Source: Acidimicrobiia bacterium
GTDB lineage: Bacteria; Actinomycetota; Acidimicrobiia; Acidimicrobiales; AC-14
NCBI GenBank assembly: GCA_023265025.1
Contig: JAHFUP010000004.1
Span: 62,001 to 126,000, forward strand
Length of the DNA stretch: 64,000 nt
Reading direction: 5' to 3'
Below the pieces are notes generated by a model that was not told the origin of the DNA, made no database searches, and worked only from the letters and a program-made list of their open reading frames with translations. Positions 7,129 to 31,768 of the stretch are shown piece after piece (the first letter of the stretch is position 1; each line of letters opens with the position of its first letter). The translations under genes and the position numbers were made by a program.

Positions 7129-7365
7129 CTAGGGCGACCTGAAGAGCTCCGAGACGAAGGCGGCCAGGGCGTCGAGGCTGCCGGGCGAGGCGTCGGTCAC
7201 GAACACGGCCGGGCGGCCGGCGCCGGCCGCCTCGATGGTGCCGGCCAAACGGCCGAGGGCGCCGGCGTCGGGGCCGACGAGGACGACAGTCACCCCGCCG
7301 GCGGCCAGCCGGGTGGCCAGGCCCTCGGAACCCGCCCAGTCAACTGGGACGACAACGACCTTCAC
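7129..7365 (-). CDS. Small Rossmann-like hypothetical protein
   Basis: This 78-residue protein has alternating strands and helices (KVVVVPVDWAG, VTVVLVGPDAGALG, AVFVTDASPGSLDAL). It resembles a truncated half of a short-chain dehydrogenase or a receiver-like fold, but has no complete nucleotide-binding motif or active site. It is immediately upstream of the amidotransferase gene with a 10-base gap. No function can be assigned. Confidence 0.5.
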   Translation of the reverse strand: MKVVVVPVDWAGSEGLATRLAAGGVTVVLVGPDAGALGRLAGTIEAAGAGRPAVFVTDASPGSLDALAAFVSELFRSP

Positions 7366-7421
7366 CCGTGCATCTTGACCCGGGGAATGCCGACCAGGTT
7401 GGTCGGGTTTAGACTGACGCC

Positions 7422-15894: not shown

Positions 15895-16634
15895 GGGGCC
15901 AGGTGGCGGGCGAGAAACCGTGCTGAGAACAGGATCTCCTCGACCGGCACGGCCGAGTGGTCTCCGGGGTGGGCGTGCAGGCGCTTGTCGACCGAGCTGA
16001 AGGCGTCGAACAGACCGAACGCCTCCGGCCGCGGAATGAGCGAGTCGTCCCACTGCTGCAGGAACATGACCGGGCAGGAGATCGACGCCGCGTCGGCCGC
16101 CATCCGGTCCCGGGTCGGCCCGAGGAGACCCATCAGTCCGAACACCGCCACCTGGATGCGCGGCTCGGCCGCCACCAGCGGTACGCCATAGATCGTCCCC
16201 ATCGAGAGGCCCCAGTAACCGATCGGGCCGTCGCCCACGTCGTCGAGGGCCCGGAGGGCGTCGATCGTGGCCTGCCAGTCGGCCACCATGTCGTCGACGG
16301 TCCCCTCCCTCGACCATTCGGCCAGGAAGGCGCTGAACAGGGCGATGTCGTCGTCGTGGCCGGGCGCCCGCCGGTCGCCGTGGCCGGGGCCGTCGATGGC
16401 GGCCACCGCGAACCCGTGGTCGGAGGCCAGGCGCCGGCCCAGGGCGACGAGGTAGTCGACCCGCTTGTGGCGCGTCGCCCCGTGGCCGAGCAGGACCAGC
16501 GGCCGCGGCCCTGTCCCGGACTCGGGCACCCAGAGGACGCCCGGCACGGTGCGTCCGGCGACGTCGACCTCGAAGCCGCGCTCGCGCACGTCGCCGGCGA
16601 CGTCGCCCTCGGCTGTCCAGCGCATTGGTAGCAC
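15873..16634 (-). CDS. Alpha/beta hydrolase (dienelactone hydrolase-like)
   Basis: The 253-residue protein has the oxyanion strand [12 protein letters not shown], the nucleophile elbow [12 protein letters not shown] (Ser about residue 143), an acid in QQWDDSLIP, and a histidine in HPGDHSAVP. The product is a cytoplasmic esterase or peptidase-type hydrolase of unknown substrate. The start could be ATG 16634 or the ATG at 16625, three codons in. It is divergent from the SpoIIE-type phosphatase and its 3' end overlaps bsaP by 22 bases. Confidence 0.8.
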
Positions 16635-16660
16635 GCTACCGACCCGCTACCCTCCTGCTG

Positions 16661-18304
16661 ATGCGCTCCCACGTGGAGGTGCTGGCTCGAGCGGCTCGGG
16701 CCATCCACGGCACGGGTGAGATCGCCGACAAGCTGGCCTGGGTCACCGAGGAGGCCCGCGCCCTCACGTCGGCCTCGTTCGCGGCGTTCGTGGGGCTCGG
16801 CGACCGGGTCGACATGGTCGCCGCCGCCGGCGTACCGGTGGGCGAGATCGACCGCTTCGCCCGACCGGCGCTGGCCCGGCTGATCCGCGCCGACGCCGGC
16901 ACCGGCGTCGTGCTGCGCTCCGAGGATCTGTCCCTCGACCGGCGCCACCGCCGGTTCCTCCAACGCCTGGAGCTGCCGGTCGACGCCAGCTGCCTGGCCG
17001 TGCCCGTCATGGGCGGCCACGGCAACCCCCACGGCGCCCTCCTGCTCGTCCACCCCAAGCCCGACGTCTTCGACGCCGACGACGAGGCGTCGGCCGGCGC
17101 CCTGGCCGACCACCTCGGCGTCGCCCTCGACAACCTCCAGGCCATGGAGCGCCTCGCCGAGCTCCAGGCCGTCCAGCGCGAGATCGTCCACCAGCTCCAG
17201 GAGGCGGTGCAGCCGCCGGCGGTGGTGGCCGAAGCCGCCGAGCTGGGCGTGCACTACGTCTCGGCCGACCCGAGCTCCCCGACCGGGGGCGATCTCTACG
17301 ACTGGCTGGTCCTGCCCGACGGCGACCTCCACCTGGCCGTCGTCGACGTGATGGGCAAGGGCGTCGGGGCCACCAAGGAGGCGGTGAGCGTCTGCCACGC
17401 CCTGCGCCTGCTGACCCTCGACGGCTGCCCGATGGAGGACCTCGTTACCCGGGCCGACGCACTGACCACCGCCCAGAGCCCCGACCTCGTGGCCACTGTG
17501 CTCGTCGCCCGCTACCGGCCGGCCGACGGCCACGTCCGCCTGGCCGGCGGCGGCCACCCGCCGGCGCTCGTGGTGTCCGGCGACGGGGAGGCCCGCCAGG
17601 TCTACGCTCCCGGCATCCCGATCGGCTATCCCGGGGCGGGCACCACCCGGGTGGTCGAGCTGACGCTCGGCCGGGCCGACACGCTCATCCTCTACACCGA
17701 CGGGCTCATCGAGGCGACCAAGGACATCCTGGTCGGCCTCGAGCGGATCACCCGCGCCGCGAGCGAGACGGCGCAGTACCCCGCCCCCCACCTGGCCCGT
17801 GCCCTCGTCGAGCGATCGCTTTCCGGCGCCATGCGCCGCGACGACTCGCTGGCCCTCGTGCTGCGCCGGCGGGTCCCGCCCGGCTTCGAGTCGAGCCCAC
17901 CCCTCGGCGCCTTCGAGTACCGGTTCTCCCCGAGCCTGGCGACCGTCCCGCTGGCCCGTCACCTCCTGGGCGACTGGCTCGAGCACCTGGCCCTCGCCGA
18001 TGGCGAGCGCGAGGACCTCCTGCTGGTTGCCTCCGAGCTGTGCTCCAACGCAGTCCGCCACGCCAGCGGCAAGCCGGGGGCGCTCGCCATGCGGGCGTGG
18101 GCCGACGGCGACGCCCTCGTCATCGAAGTGGAGGACGACGGCGCCGGCATGGAGCTGACCCAGCGCATGGAGGACCCGGACCTGGAATCCGAGACCGGGC
18201 GGGGCGTCTACGTGGTGCGGGCGCTGACCGACGACCTCACCGTGCGGCGGGTCGAGGAGCGCACGGTCGTGCGGGCCGTACGCCGGGCCGTGCTGCCCGG
18301 CTAG
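16661..18304 (+). CDS. GAF-SpoIIE phosphatase with C-terminal HATPase (anti-sigma-like) domain
   Basis: Starting at ATG 16661, the 547-residue protein has a GAF domain (about 10-150), a PP2C/SpoIIE phosphatase domain (about 190-370) and a histidine-kinase-like ATPase domain (about 410-545). Metal-binding acids are visible in GGDLYDW, VVDVMGKG and LYTDGLIE. The ATPase part has the N-box ELCSNAVRHA and VEDDGAGM. This is the architecture of regulators in the partner-switching pathway: they dephosphorylate an anti-anti-sigma factor and may themselves act as an anti-sigma kinase. No anti-anti-sigma gene is nearby. An upstream in-frame TTG at 16625 is an alternative start. Confidence 0.88.
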   Translation: MRSHVEVLARAARAIHGTGEIADKLAWVTEEARALTSASFAAFVGLGDRVDMVAAAGVPVGEIDRFARPALARLIRADAGTGVVLRSEDLSLDRRHRRFLQRLELPVDASCLAVPVMGGHGNPHGALLLVHPKPDVFDADDEASAGALADHLGVALDNLQAMERLAELQAVQREIVHQLQEAVQPPAVVAEAAELGVHYVSADPSSPTGGDLYDWLVLPDGDLHLAVVDVMGKGVGATKEAVSVCHALRLLTLDGCPMEDLVTRADALTTAQSPDLVATVLVARYRPADGHVRLAGGGHPPALVVSGDGEARQVYAPGIPIGYPGAGTTRVVELTLGRADTLILYTDGLIEATKDILVGLERITRAASETAQYPAPHLARALVERSLSGAMRRDDSLALVLRRRVPPGFESSPPLGAFEYRFSPSLATVPLARHLLGDWLEHLALADGEREDLLLVASELCSNAVRHASGKPGALAMRAWADGDALVIEVEDDGAGMELTQRMEDPDLESETGRGVYVVRALTDDLTVRRVEERTVVRAVRRAVLPG

Positions 18305-18522: not shown

Positions 18523-18574
18523 GGGTGGATCCTACCCTCGGGCGGCCTCCGTGAAGGCGGCCGGTAGGGTTCCC

Positions 18575-18760
18575 TGTCGGTGCAGCTGCGGCGACGCGAG
18601 ACCTGTCCGGACCGCCTTCGGGCGGCGCCGGCACGCTCCGGGGCTACCCCGGGGACATCGCCCTACCCGGGCATCTCGTCGCATGCGCCTGAGCCCGCCT
18701 CATGGCGGGCCACCGCGCACACACCACGGGGACCAGTCGCGGCCCGCAGCTGCACGACAC
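18575..18760 (+). ncRNA. Predicted retron msr-msd RNA with a1/a2 inverted repeat
   Basis: A long inverted repeat frames this RNA. The 12-base perfect core GTGCAGCTGCGG (18580-18591) pairs with CCGCAGCTGCAC (18744-18755). Four further pairs follow outside a bulged G, and about six pairs inside a small internal loop, so 18575-18599 pairs with 18737-18759. Inside lie a CCGCC-TTCG-GGCGG hairpin (18612-18625, extended to 18607-18631), an 8-pair hairpin with a 3-base loop (18636-18654), and a hairpin GCCCGCC-TCAT-GGCGGGC (18693-18710) extended by TGCGC/GCGCA (18684-18688/18715-18719). This matches the msr-msd layout: a1, short stems, msd stem, a2 just before the RT. The exact ends and branching G are not determined. 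Confidence 0.8.
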
Positions 18761-18761
18761 C

Positions 18762-20126
18762 GTGACCTATGAGCGACCGGAGGTCGTCGTCGCCAGGGGG
18801 CTGGCCCACGCCTTTCTCGCCGGCGAGTGGGACCCCCCGGCCATGACGGTCCGGGGCCAGGCGGCGGTCGGCCGGCGCCGGGTGTGGCTTCGCGACCTCG
18901 CCCTGGCCGCCCGCCACGAGTACCCCGAGGCGCCCCGCGACCGTCCCCGTGAGCTGACCTCGTTCCTGGCCGCCTGCCCGCCCCTGACAGGCGCCTTCGC
19001 CGCCGCGGTCCGGGCCGGCGAGGGTCCGCCGGCTGTGCAGCGGTGGTTCGTCGCCGAGACGGCGATGGGGCCGGCGCCGTGGCCGGTCGCCCCCCTGCAC
19101 ACCGTCGCCGACCTCCAGGACCTCCTCGGCATGTCGACGGCCACCCTGGCCTGGTTCGCCGACACCAAGCGGCTGGAGCGATCGGTGGCCGACGAGCGAC
19201 TGCGCCACTACCGGTACCGGTGGATCCCGAAGCGCAACGGGGGCGCCCGCCTCATCGAGCAGCCGAAGCCGGTGCTCAAGCACGTCCAGCGCGTCCTCCT
19301 GCGGGAGATCGTCGAACGGGTGCCCGTGCACCCGGCCGCCCACGGCTTCCGCCGGGGCCGGTCGGCCCTGACCCACGCCGGCGGCCACGTCCAGAAGAGG
19401 GTCGTGATCCGCCTCGACCTGGAGGACTACTTCGCCTCCGTCGCGGCCGGGCGGGTCTATGGGATCTTCCGCCGCTGCGGCTACCCGGAGCCGGTGGCCC
19501 ACATGCTCACCGCCCTCGTGACCAACTCGGTGCCGGCCACGGTCCGGGCCGCCGCGGTCCCGCCCGAGTCGGCCGAGCGACGCCCCGCCTTCCGCCGGCT
19601 GGGGGTCCACCTGGCCCACCCCCACCTGCCGCAGGGGGCGCCGACGTCGCCGGCGCTGGCCAACCTGGCCGCGTTCGGGCTCGACCGCCGGCTCGCCGGC
19701 CTGGCCACGGCCGCAGGGCTGACGTACTCGCGCTACGCCGACGACCTGGCGTTCTCGTCCTCGGCAGCCCTGGCGACGCCGGCCACCAACCGGCTGGTCG
19801 ACAACGTCACCGCCATCGCCGGCGAGGGGGGTTTCCGGGTCAATCCGTGGAAGACGTCGGTGCAGCGGGCCGGCCGGCGCCAGTGGCTGGCCGGCGTGAT
19901 CGTGAACGAGCGACCGAACGTCGAGCGCCGGGAGTACGACCTCCTCAAGGCGACCCTTCACAACGCGGTGCGCCACGGGCCGGCGGGACAGAACCGGGCC
20001 GGCCATCCGGCGTTCCGCGAGCACCTGCGGGGGCGGATCGCATGGGTCGACCACCTGAACCCGGCGCGGGGCGAGCGCCTTCTTGCCACCTTCGCCCGGA
20101 TCGACTGGGACGACGACGAGCGATGA
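18762..20126 (+). CDS. Retron-type reverse transcriptase
   Basis: Starting at GTG 18762, right after the a2 arm, the RT is 454 residues. Core motifs: R217-L-D-L-E-D-Y-F (domain 3, catalytic Asp), LPQGAPTSP from 289, catalytic YADD at 325-328, and LAGVIVNE at 376 where classical retrons have VTG. The retron NAxxH motif is replaced by HAGGH near 205. About 140 residues precede the RT core (including ARGLAHAFLAGEW and WFAD), recalling the N-terminal extension of myxobacterial Mx162-type retron RTs. No maturase, HNH or integrase domain is present, so it is not a group II intron. An in-frame ATG at 18702 would translate through the RNA and is less likely. Confidence 0.9.
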   Translation: MTYERPEVVVARGLAHAFLAGEWDPPAMTVRGQAAVGRRRVWLRDLALAARHEYPEAPRDRPRELTSFLAACPPLTGAFAAAVRAGEGPPAVQRWFVAETAMGPAPWPVAPLHTVADLQDLLGMSTATLAWFADTKRLERSVADERLRHYRYRWIPKRNGGARLIEQPKPVLKHVQRVLLREIVERVPVHPAAHGFRRGRSALTHAGGHVQKRVVIRLDLEDYFASVAAGRVYGIFRRCGYPEPVAHMLTALVTNSVPATVRAAAVPPESAERRPAFRRLGVHLAHPHLPQGAPTSPALANLAAFGLDRRLAGLATAAGLTYSRYADDLAFSSSAALATPATNRLVDNVTAIAGEGGFRVNPWKTSVQRAGRRQWLAGVIVNERPNVERREYDLLKATLHNAVRHGPAGQNRAGHPAFREHLRGRIAWVDHLNPARGERLLATFARIDWDDDER

Positions 20127-20133
20127 TGGGCCC

Positions 20134-20553
20134 ATGGGCGCGTGGGGCACCGGCATGTTCGACAACGACGACGCCGCCGACTGGGCCTACGAGCTCGACG
20201 AGGCCGTCGACCTGACGCCCGTCCGGGAGGCGCTGGCCGCCGCCACGGACGGCGACGGCTACCTCGAACGACCCGAAGGGGCGTGTGCCGTCGCCGCCGC
20301 CGCGGTCCTGGCCGCCACCTTCGACGGGGACCTGCGGGGCCTGCCGGAACGGGTCGGCGAGTGGGTCGACGGCCAACCCGGGACCTCAACGACGGGCGAC
20401 GCCCGGCTCGCCCTCGACGCCCTGGTCCGGGTGATCAGCGAGGACTCGGAGCTGGCGGAGCTGTGGCGGGACTCGCCTGACGCCGCCGAATGGGCGCAAG
20501 GGATCGAGAGGCTGGGCCGGCGCCTGGAGGCATCTCTCGGCGGCGAGGAGTAG
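20134..20553 (+). CDS. DUF4259 protein, possible retron effector or accessory
   Basis: The 139-residue protein begins MGAWGTGMFDNDDAADWAYE, the hallmark start of DUF4259. It is acidic and helical, without catalytic signature or membrane helix. The ATG is 7 bases after the RT stop, so the two genes are very probably cotranscribed. DUF4259 proteins have no known activity. In retrons the third component is usually an effector toxin; this neighbour is the only candidate downstream (inference). It may equally be an unrelated gene that shares the transcript. Confidence 0.75.
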   Translation: MGAWGTGMFDNDDAADWAYELDEAVDLTPVREALAAATDGDGYLERPEGACAVAAAAVLAATFDGDLRGLPERVGEWVDGQPGTSTTGDARLALDALVRVISEDSELAELWRDSPDAAEWAQGIERLGRRLEASLGGEE

Positions 20554-23093: not shown

Positions 23094-24029
23094 ATGGCCA
23101 GAGCGATTTGGAGCGGTTCGATCAGCTTCGGGCTGGTCAGCGTGCCGGTGAAGGCGTACTCCGCGGTGCGCGACCACAGCGTCCACTTCAACCAGTTGGA
23201 GAAGGGGACGGGGGCCCGGATCAACTACCAGAAGGTGTCCGACAAGACGGGCAAGGAGGTCAGTGGCGGCGACATCGAGTCGGGCTACGAGGTCTCCTCC
23301 GGCAAGTACGTGGTGGTGGACGACAAGGAGCTCGAGGAGCTGCGGCCCCGCACGTCGCGGACCATCGACATCGCCGACTTCGTCGAGCTGTCGGAGATCG
23401 ACCCGATCTACTACGAGCGCACTTACTGGCTGGGGCCGGACGGCGAGGCCGCCGTCCGCCCGTACCGGCTCCTCGTGGCGGCCATGGAGGCGGAGGGCAA
23501 GGCCGGCATCGGCACGGTCGTGATGCGGAAGAAGCAGTACCTCGGGGCCATCCGCCCGCTCGACGGGGCGCTGGCCATGTCGACCATGCGCTTCGCCGAC
23601 GAAGTGGTGCCGCAGTCCGACGTCGACGCCCTCCCCAAGAAGGGCGCCAAGCCGGAGCCCAATGAGCTGAAGCTCGCCTCGCAGATCATCGGCTCGCTGG
23701 CCACGGACTGGGACCCCAAGCGCTACCACGACACCTACACCGAGGAGCTCAAGAGCCTCATCGAGGCCAAGGCCAAGGGCAAGACGATCGTGGTGGAGGG
23801 GGAAGCGCCGGCGGAGGCCACTGTCGTCGACCTGATGCAGGCACTGGAGGCCAGCCTGGCTGCGGCCCGCAAGGGTGGCGGCCGCAAGCTGGCATCGGAG
23901 GTGGCCAAGGTCGCCGACCAGCTCGCCGCCGAGGCGGACGACGATGCCGCCAAGAAGGCGCCGGCCGGGAAGAAGTCCTCCACAAAGAGGAAGCCGGCGA
24001 CCAAGGCGCCGGCCCGCAAGAGCGCCTGA
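23094..24029 (+). CDS. ku: Non-homologous end-joining protein Ku
   Basis: The 311-residue protein starts MARAIWSGSISFGLVSVPVK, the universal bacterial Ku N-terminus. It has the Ku core (HFNQLEKGTGARINYQKV, DIADFVELSEIDPIYYERTY). The last 60 residues form a Lys/Ala-rich tail like those that modulate DNA binding and threading in actinobacterial Ku. As a homodimer it binds double-strand ends and recruits ligase LigD. No ligD is beside it. ATG start at 23094, 29 bases after the previous stop. Confidence 0.95.
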   Translation: MARAIWSGSISFGLVSVPVKAYSAVRDHSVHFNQLEKGTGARINYQKVSDKTGKEVSGGDIESGYEVSSGKYVVVDDKELEELRPRTSRTIDIADFVELSEIDPIYYERTYWLGPDGEAAVRPYRLLVAAMEAEGKAGIGTVVMRKKQYLGAIRPLDGALAMSTMRFADEVVPQSDVDALPKKGAKPEPNELKLASQIIGSLATDWDPKRYHDTYTEELKSLIEAKAKGKTIVVEGEAPAEATVVDLMQALEASLAAARKGGGRKLASEVAKVADQLAAEADDDAAKKAPAGKKSSTKRKPATKAPARKSA

Positions 24030-30929: not shown

Positions 30930-31768
30930 GCCTCATCCTGGTCGGGACGCCCATCGGGAACCTGGGCGACCTGTCGCCCCGCGCCGTCGACGCCCTGGCC
31001 ACCGCCGACACCATCGCATGCGAGGACACCCGCCGCACCCGCGCCCTCCTGTCCCACCTCGGCCTCCCCGCCGGCCGGCGGCTGCTCGCCGTCCACGACC
31101 ACAACGAGGCGGTGGAGGTCACGAACGTCCTCGCCCGCCTGGACAAGGGCGAGCGGGTGGTCGTCGTGACCGACGCCGGCATGCCGGGCATCTCCGACCC
31201 CGGCGAGCGGCTCGTAGCCGCCGCCGCAGCCGCCGGCCATGCGGTCGACGTTGTCCCCGGCCCCTCGGCCATGGTCGCCGCCCTCGTGGTCAGCGGCCTG
31301 TCGACGAGCCGGTTCTGCTTCGAGGGCTTCCTTCCTCGCAAGGGCTCGGCCCGCGCCGAGCGGCTGCGGGAAGTGGCCGCCGATCGCCGGACGACGGTGA
31401 TCTTCGAGGCGCCGCACCGGATCCGGGCGACGGTGGCCGACCTGGCCGGCGCCGCCGGCGGGCTCCGGCGGGTCGCGGTCGTGCGGGAGCTCACCAAGCT
31501 GCACGAGGAGATCTGGCGGGGGACGTTGGCCGGCGCCGTCGAGCATCTGTCGACGAAGGAGCCGCGCGGCGAGTACGTCATCGTCCTGGACGGTGCGCCA
31601 CCGCCCGAGCCGGCGGACGAGATCGACGTGGAGACCGCCCTGCGGGCCCGGCTCGACGCCGGCGCCGACAAGCGGTCGGCCGTCGCCGAGGTGACCGCCG
31701 CCCTGGGCGTACCCAAGCGGACCGTGTACGACATCGCGCTCCGGCTCTGGGCGCGAGAATCCAAGTAG
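30926..31768 (+). CDS. rsmI: 16S rRNA (cytidine-1402-2'-O)-methyltransferase RsmI
   Basis: The 280-residue enzyme methylates the ribose of C1402 in 16S rRNA near the P site. The tetrapyrrole-methylase fold is clear: LVGTPIGNLGDLSPRAV, CEDTRRTRALLSHL, VTDAGMPGISDPG, and FCFEGFLPRKG. The C-terminal RsmI extension is present. The GTG at 30926 overlaps the DUF192 stop by 4 bases, implying translational coupling. Confidence 0.93.
   Translation: MSLILVGTPIGNLGDLSPRAVDALATADTIACEDTRRTRALLSHLGLPAGRRLLAVHDHNEAVEVTNVLARLDKGERVVVVTDAGMPGISDPGERLVAAAAAAGHAVDVVPGPSAMVAALVVSGLSTSRFCFEGFLPRKGSARAERLREVAADRRTTVIFEAPHRIRATVADLAGAAGGLRRVAVVRELTKLHEEIWRGTLAGAVEHLSTKEPRGEYVIVLDGAPPPEPADEIDVETALRARLDAGADKRSAVAEVTAALGVPKRTVYDIALRLWARESK

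Follow-up and report, generated by a model that had tools for sequence, protein, structure and literature searches.

The locus at positions 18557-20132 of the window (the whole stretch of 64,000 nucleotides analysed here) is very probably a retron, a reading to which we assign a probability of about 0.93 on the grounds of its architecture, the clade of its reverse transcriptase (RT) and the covariation of the RNA that precedes the RT gene. By its sequence it is an orphan retron of two parts, a non-coding RNA (ncRNA) and an RT, both on the + strand, without a linked effector gene, and it lies on the chromosome of an uncultured member of the Actinomycetota, of the class Acidimicrobiia to judge from named relatives. 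Most retrons described so far include an effector, either as a gene or as a fused domain, and the lack of a recognised one here weighs against the retron reading. The first-pass annotation had already proposed a retron here, and this proposal is now supported both by the RNA covariation and by the profile and fold matches of the RT.

Structure and covariation of the RNA

The RNA is closed by an inverted repeat with a perfect 12-bp core (18580-18591 / 18744-18755), which the minimum-energy fold lengthens to 18575-18599 / 18737-18759. The 5′ strand of this closing stem is the a1 arm (18575-18599, covarying helix 1), whose inner part, 18595-18599, pairs with 18737-18741; its 3′ strand is the a2 arm (18737-18759), delimited by the repeat, the fold and the covariation. 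The a2 arm ends at 18759, and only two bases separate it from the GTG start codon of the RT at 18762. The stem encloses three hairpins. The first msr hairpin (18604-18635, helix 2) varies in length among the related loci, with base pairs that covary, and the second one (18636-18654, helix 3), CUCCGGGG-CUA-CCCCGGGG, is near-invariant across them, being paired in 100% of the cells. The msd hairpin (18684-18719) displays strong compensatory changes in helices 4 and 5; its lower stem (18684-18688/18715-18719) and upper stem (18693-18699/18704-18710) are defined by fold and covariation. The repeat with its 12-base core, the three stable hairpins within it and the two-base distance to the RT gene had all been noticed in the first-pass annotation, and the repeat search and the fold recover each of them.

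Taken as a single sequence, the case for an RNA is good and not decisive. Among 2000 dinucleotide shuffles of 18540-18769, 8 contained a perfect repeat of at least 12 bp with a similar loop, as did 2 of the 1276 tiles of the whole window, and the fold of 18560-18770 had a z score of -3.07. The second such tile holds a 13-bp perfect inverted repeat (31073-31085 / 31226-31238) with a 140-nt loop, within long open reading frames, and this repeat probably arose by chance in coding sequence of high G+C. It is the comparison with other loci that decides: chance is excluded by the covariation in 16 loci, and not by the single-sequence statistics alone.

The RT has relatives at 75% identity within the genus and at 61% within the family, others in the order, the class and the phylum, and further ones in Burkholderia, Tsukamurella, Dietzia and Methylobacterium, on records of plasmids or second chromosomes. 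Across nine Actinomycetota loci, the stretch of 185-200 nt that precedes the RT could be aligned and forms the same closing stem out of different bases, with hairpin 2 as a near-invariant CUCCGGGG-NNN-CCCCGGGG; RNAalifold predicted 32 pairs on these nine loci, 17 of them changed on both sides. A covariance model trained on the nine loci, then searched against loci outside the training set, matched seven of these directly upstream of the RT (E 1.7e-22 to 2e-4), namely three from Burkholderia, one from Dietzia, two more from Actinomycetota and one at a contig end (G273), where the sequence past the RNA translates as the start of such an RT. The refined model added a 17th member, from Tsukamurella (E 9.4e-9). 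Next to the more distant Methylobacterium RT (L025), the start codon of which is unsure, the covariance models detected no RNA.

The covariation was counted on 16 loci from Actinomycetota and Burkholderia, the window locus included. Standard pairs filled 95.5% of the base-pair cells, and 21 of the 32 pairs showed two-sided changes with pairing kept. The covariation score was 0.536, against 0.177 for shuffled alignments (0/500) and 0.05-0.13 when the structure was slid along the alignment. Since this alignment had been fitted to the model, an alignment made with MAFFT was counted as well, and gave 94.3% paired cells, 17 two-sided pairs and a score of 0.437 vs 0.177. The check proposed in the first-pass annotation, a search of homologous loci for compensatory changes in both arms of the repeat, thus came out in favour of a retron, and such changes extend to the inner helices. 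Upstream of the RT there is therefore a structured ncRNA, closed by a1 and a2 and kept by compensatory change, as is expected of a retron. Moreover, 15 of the 16 loci have U-G at one pair of hairpin 2 (columns 80/96); as this pair would read C-A on the opposite strand, the RNA should be transcribed from the + strand, together with the RT. In several relatives, too, a2 abuts the start codon of the RT or overlaps with it, so that the RNA and the mRNA are probably one transcript.

The reverse transcriptase

The RT gene (18762-20126, 454 aa) probably starts at the GTG. Its frame is open further upstream, to an ATG at 18702 that lies inside the msd hairpin, and both the relatives and the layout of the locus favour the GTG over this ATG. 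The translation contains all the motifs that the first-pass annotation had listed (LPQGAPTSP, YADD, HAGGH and LAG). They comprise the features of a retron-type RT: the QG motif, YxDD, a region X and a region Y. Region X has the form xAxxH (HAGGH here) and not NAXXH, and region Y, which starts with LAG here, starts with VTG, ITG, LTG or MTG in the relatives. The changes to NAXXH and VTG count against a retron to some degree, tempered by these forms in the relatives and by Mx65, which is likewise without the Asn (PMC6868368). One relative alone (the RT of G286) has RT motifs separated by a repetitive insertion rich in proline and glycine and several dozen residues long (L033, ~7210-7400).

Among the PADLOC models, the RT is best matched by RT_other (547 bits) and RT_outgroup, a retron model (515 bits), both of which span residues 7-10 to ~450, followed by RT_XIII with 312 bits; all 16 aligned relatives match RT_other and RT_outgroup as well. 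The best NCBIfam match is the retron St85 RT family, under its cutoff. With Pfam, RVT_1 is the only domain found, and the N-terminal extension gives matches at noise level only. Retron RTs, those of Ec86 and others, also lead the PDB sequence search.

The predicted structure points the same way. A first AlphaFold run with 3 sequences was poor (mean pLDDT 45), and the model used here comes from a rerun with 38 sequences (mean pLDDT 82.9, with most of residues 145-450 above 90). All its best PDB matches in a fold search are retron RTs, with Ec86 reaching a Z of 27.3 over 295 residues at 28% identity; group II and DGR RTs score lower (Z ~19-20). The RT core starts around residues 110-145 and extends from ~145 to ~450, so that the N-terminal extension of 140 residues given in the first-pass annotation is about right, at ~110-140 residues by the predicted structure. 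Residues 1 to ~110 are predicted to be helical with low confidence (pLDDT ~38-64); we therefore claim no fold for them, and the absence of a structural match there means little. In a quick tree that also included 48 other retron-type RTs, taken from viral contigs, the 16 related RTs group together as a single clade (SH-aLRT 99), and a single-sequence search found no close relatives of the RT in viral contigs.

Could this be an RT of another class (group II-derived, DGR, Abi/DRT or UG), with the RNA serving as a template or guide of another sort, like that of DRT2 or DRT9? The RT does give weak matches to TIGR04416, a group II model (51 bits), and to Drt2 (27 bits), and in DRT2 and DRT9 the RT likewise stands beside a structured ncRNA. 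But the retron models score far higher (515-547 bits), the fold is closest to retron RTs, and by profile score and fold rank this RT is well outside the DRT2 and DRT9 groups. Furthermore, a closing stem a1/a2 that ends at the RT start is retron-like. We thus consider an RT of another class highly unlikely.

Specificity of the RNA and extent of the element

When the RNA model was searched against two samples of whole genomes, 395 of the class and 396 of the phylum, all strong matches lay at RTs of this family; the sole match elsewhere, with an E value of 0.0068, is taken as chance. In the 645 kb surrounding 80 other retron-type RTs, no match appeared at E up to 1. Rfam searches with the window RNA at gathering and relaxed thresholds returned no family, the msr family included, and the RNAs of seven relatives gave no match either. 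The first-pass annotation had called this retron apparently undescribed, which is right only in part: the RNA is absent from Rfam, while the RT clade is already in the PADLOC retron models. To those protein models the present comparison adds an RNA family and the absence of a linked effector; the RNA may have been described before, in Mestre 2020 or the retron census.

The same results bear on the idea that the upstream structure is a regulatory leader of the RT gene, attenuator or riboswitch-like, and not a template. Its position would suit a leader, immediately before the RT start codon and in places overlapping it, but a closing stem around several hairpins, with a G directly after the inner stem, fits a retron RNA, the RNA is coupled only to RTs of this retron clade, and no Rfam leader is matched. 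A leader therefore appears very improbable.

The retron also has sharp limits. On the left, homology to the same-genus genome that carries a related retron (G002) sets in again at 18557, immediately ahead of a1; on the right, homology to a second genome of the genus (G001) does so at 20133, immediately behind the RT. The unit therefore consists of the RNA and the RT alone, 18557-20132, the neighbouring genes being residents of the site. Both genomes differ from the window beyond the retron, which argues for a replaced segment rather than for a clean insertion. G001 has no such RT, and both the SpoIIE-type gene and the DUF4259 gene are present at its site, with nitroreductase-like and response-regulator-like frames, judged by eye, in place of the retron (L053, 4160-6240). 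By sequence comparison, the spot between these two genes varies in content. The same-genus carrier (L026) has ~1.3 kb extra between the equivalents of 18503 and 18557, just upstream of the retron. Downstream of the retron, the window encodes a Ku-type DNA end-binding protein (23094-24029, PF02735), which is syntenic in the same-genus carrier.

In an all-against-all comparison that took in the reading frames up to 9 kb away from each of 17 RTs, the RT was the only gene common to all 17 neighbourhoods, a second cluster being its antisense shadow. No conserved effector gene or domain is linked to the RT in these 17 neighbourhoods, and RVT_1 is the sole known domain of the RT itself. A tripartite retron, with the DUF4259 protein (20134-20553) or the SpoIIE/GAF/ATPase protein (16625-18304) as its effector, is accordingly hard to sustain: both genes adjoin the retron and are conserved nearby in the same-genus carrier, but both also occupy the same site in the retron-less G001, neither accompanies the RT in any of the 15 further loci compared and neither is matched by PADLOC. 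These two candidates were thus ruled out as effectors, and the neighbour that the first-pass annotation mentioned together with the retron has no part in it by this comparison.

Possible mechanism, role and relation to known retrons

The role of effector-less retrons has been a puzzle since the first msDNA, which was found in myxobacteria. If the present locus works as other retrons do, an RNA of ~185 nt, read from the + strand, would fold through the pairing of a1 with a2 and would be bound by the RT. In known retrons the priming guanosine is located at the inner end of a1 (PMC6868368). Here G18600 comes directly after the inner helix 18595-18599/18737-18741, as the first base beyond the a1 helix to be left unpaired, and its context is GAG; an AG is found at or near the same place in the relatives, with GAGC in L027 and L032. 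Based on the folds and this rule, we infer that cDNA synthesis would start from the 2′-OH of G18600 and that the RT would copy the msd hairpin leftwards from ~18736. The likely template, deduced from the anatomy of the RNA, would span 18673-18736, its 5′ limit being a guess, and the product would be a branched RNA-DNA molecule (msDNA) with a DNA part estimated at ~55-65 nt.

Retrons studied so far act mostly in phage defence with an effector protein (for example PMC12548924). For this retron, beside which no effector gene is seen, the phage-defence role that the first-pass annotation gave as usual gains no support, and we grant a defence role only about an even chance. Its role is most likely sensing or defence, in which the acting partner would be either the helical N-terminal extension of the RT or an unlinked host protein; the retron may also have another role. 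The N-terminal extension is present in most members of the group and looks much shortened in one (L031): there the match to the RNA runs into the reading frame before it ends, so that only ~35 residues precede the conserved region. This shortening argues against the extension as a universal toxin, and weakens its candidacy as the effector of the whole group. Tentatively, and with more doubt than confidence, we suggest that retrons devoid of an effector gene are widespread in Actinomycetota and Burkholderia, with an RNA family of their own, that an ncRNA and one protein make a complete locus, and that the N-terminal extension either is itself the effector or serves to dock an unlinked host protein.

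As of 2019, experimentally verified retrons came from Gamma- and Deltaproteobacteria only (PMC6868368). The present locus offers a precisely delimited two-part retron, an RNA supported by covariation in 17 loci and a same-genus genome devoid of the retron, so that one can test directly whether msDNA is made and whether an effector is needed. G+C-rich pairs of RT and RNA could also be of use for genome editing in Actinomycetota.

Among described retrons, those of the Mx162 and Mx65 types (Mxa1 and Mxa2, and also Sa163 and Ne144) have an RT with an N-terminal extension, as here. The Mx65 RT is without the Asn of NAXXH, like HAGGH here, and Mx65 primes in a GAGC context (PMC6868368), compared with GAG at our predicted site. 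The primary transcript of Mx162 has 241 nt (PMC6868368), against an RNA of ~185 nt here, and the myxobacterial retrons belong to a phylum different from that of this Actinomycetota retron. A placement near these myxobacterial types, as in the first-pass annotation, is plausible, and the extension, the substitution of the Asn and the GAG context suggest it indirectly, by likeness of described features. Ec86 (Eco1), the best match by fold, shares the layout with the RNA before the RT; however, it has a linked effector and lacks an N-terminal extension of this size. At the level of the protein, on which the PADLOC models are built, the RT matches the RT_outgroup and RT_other clades over nearly its whole length.
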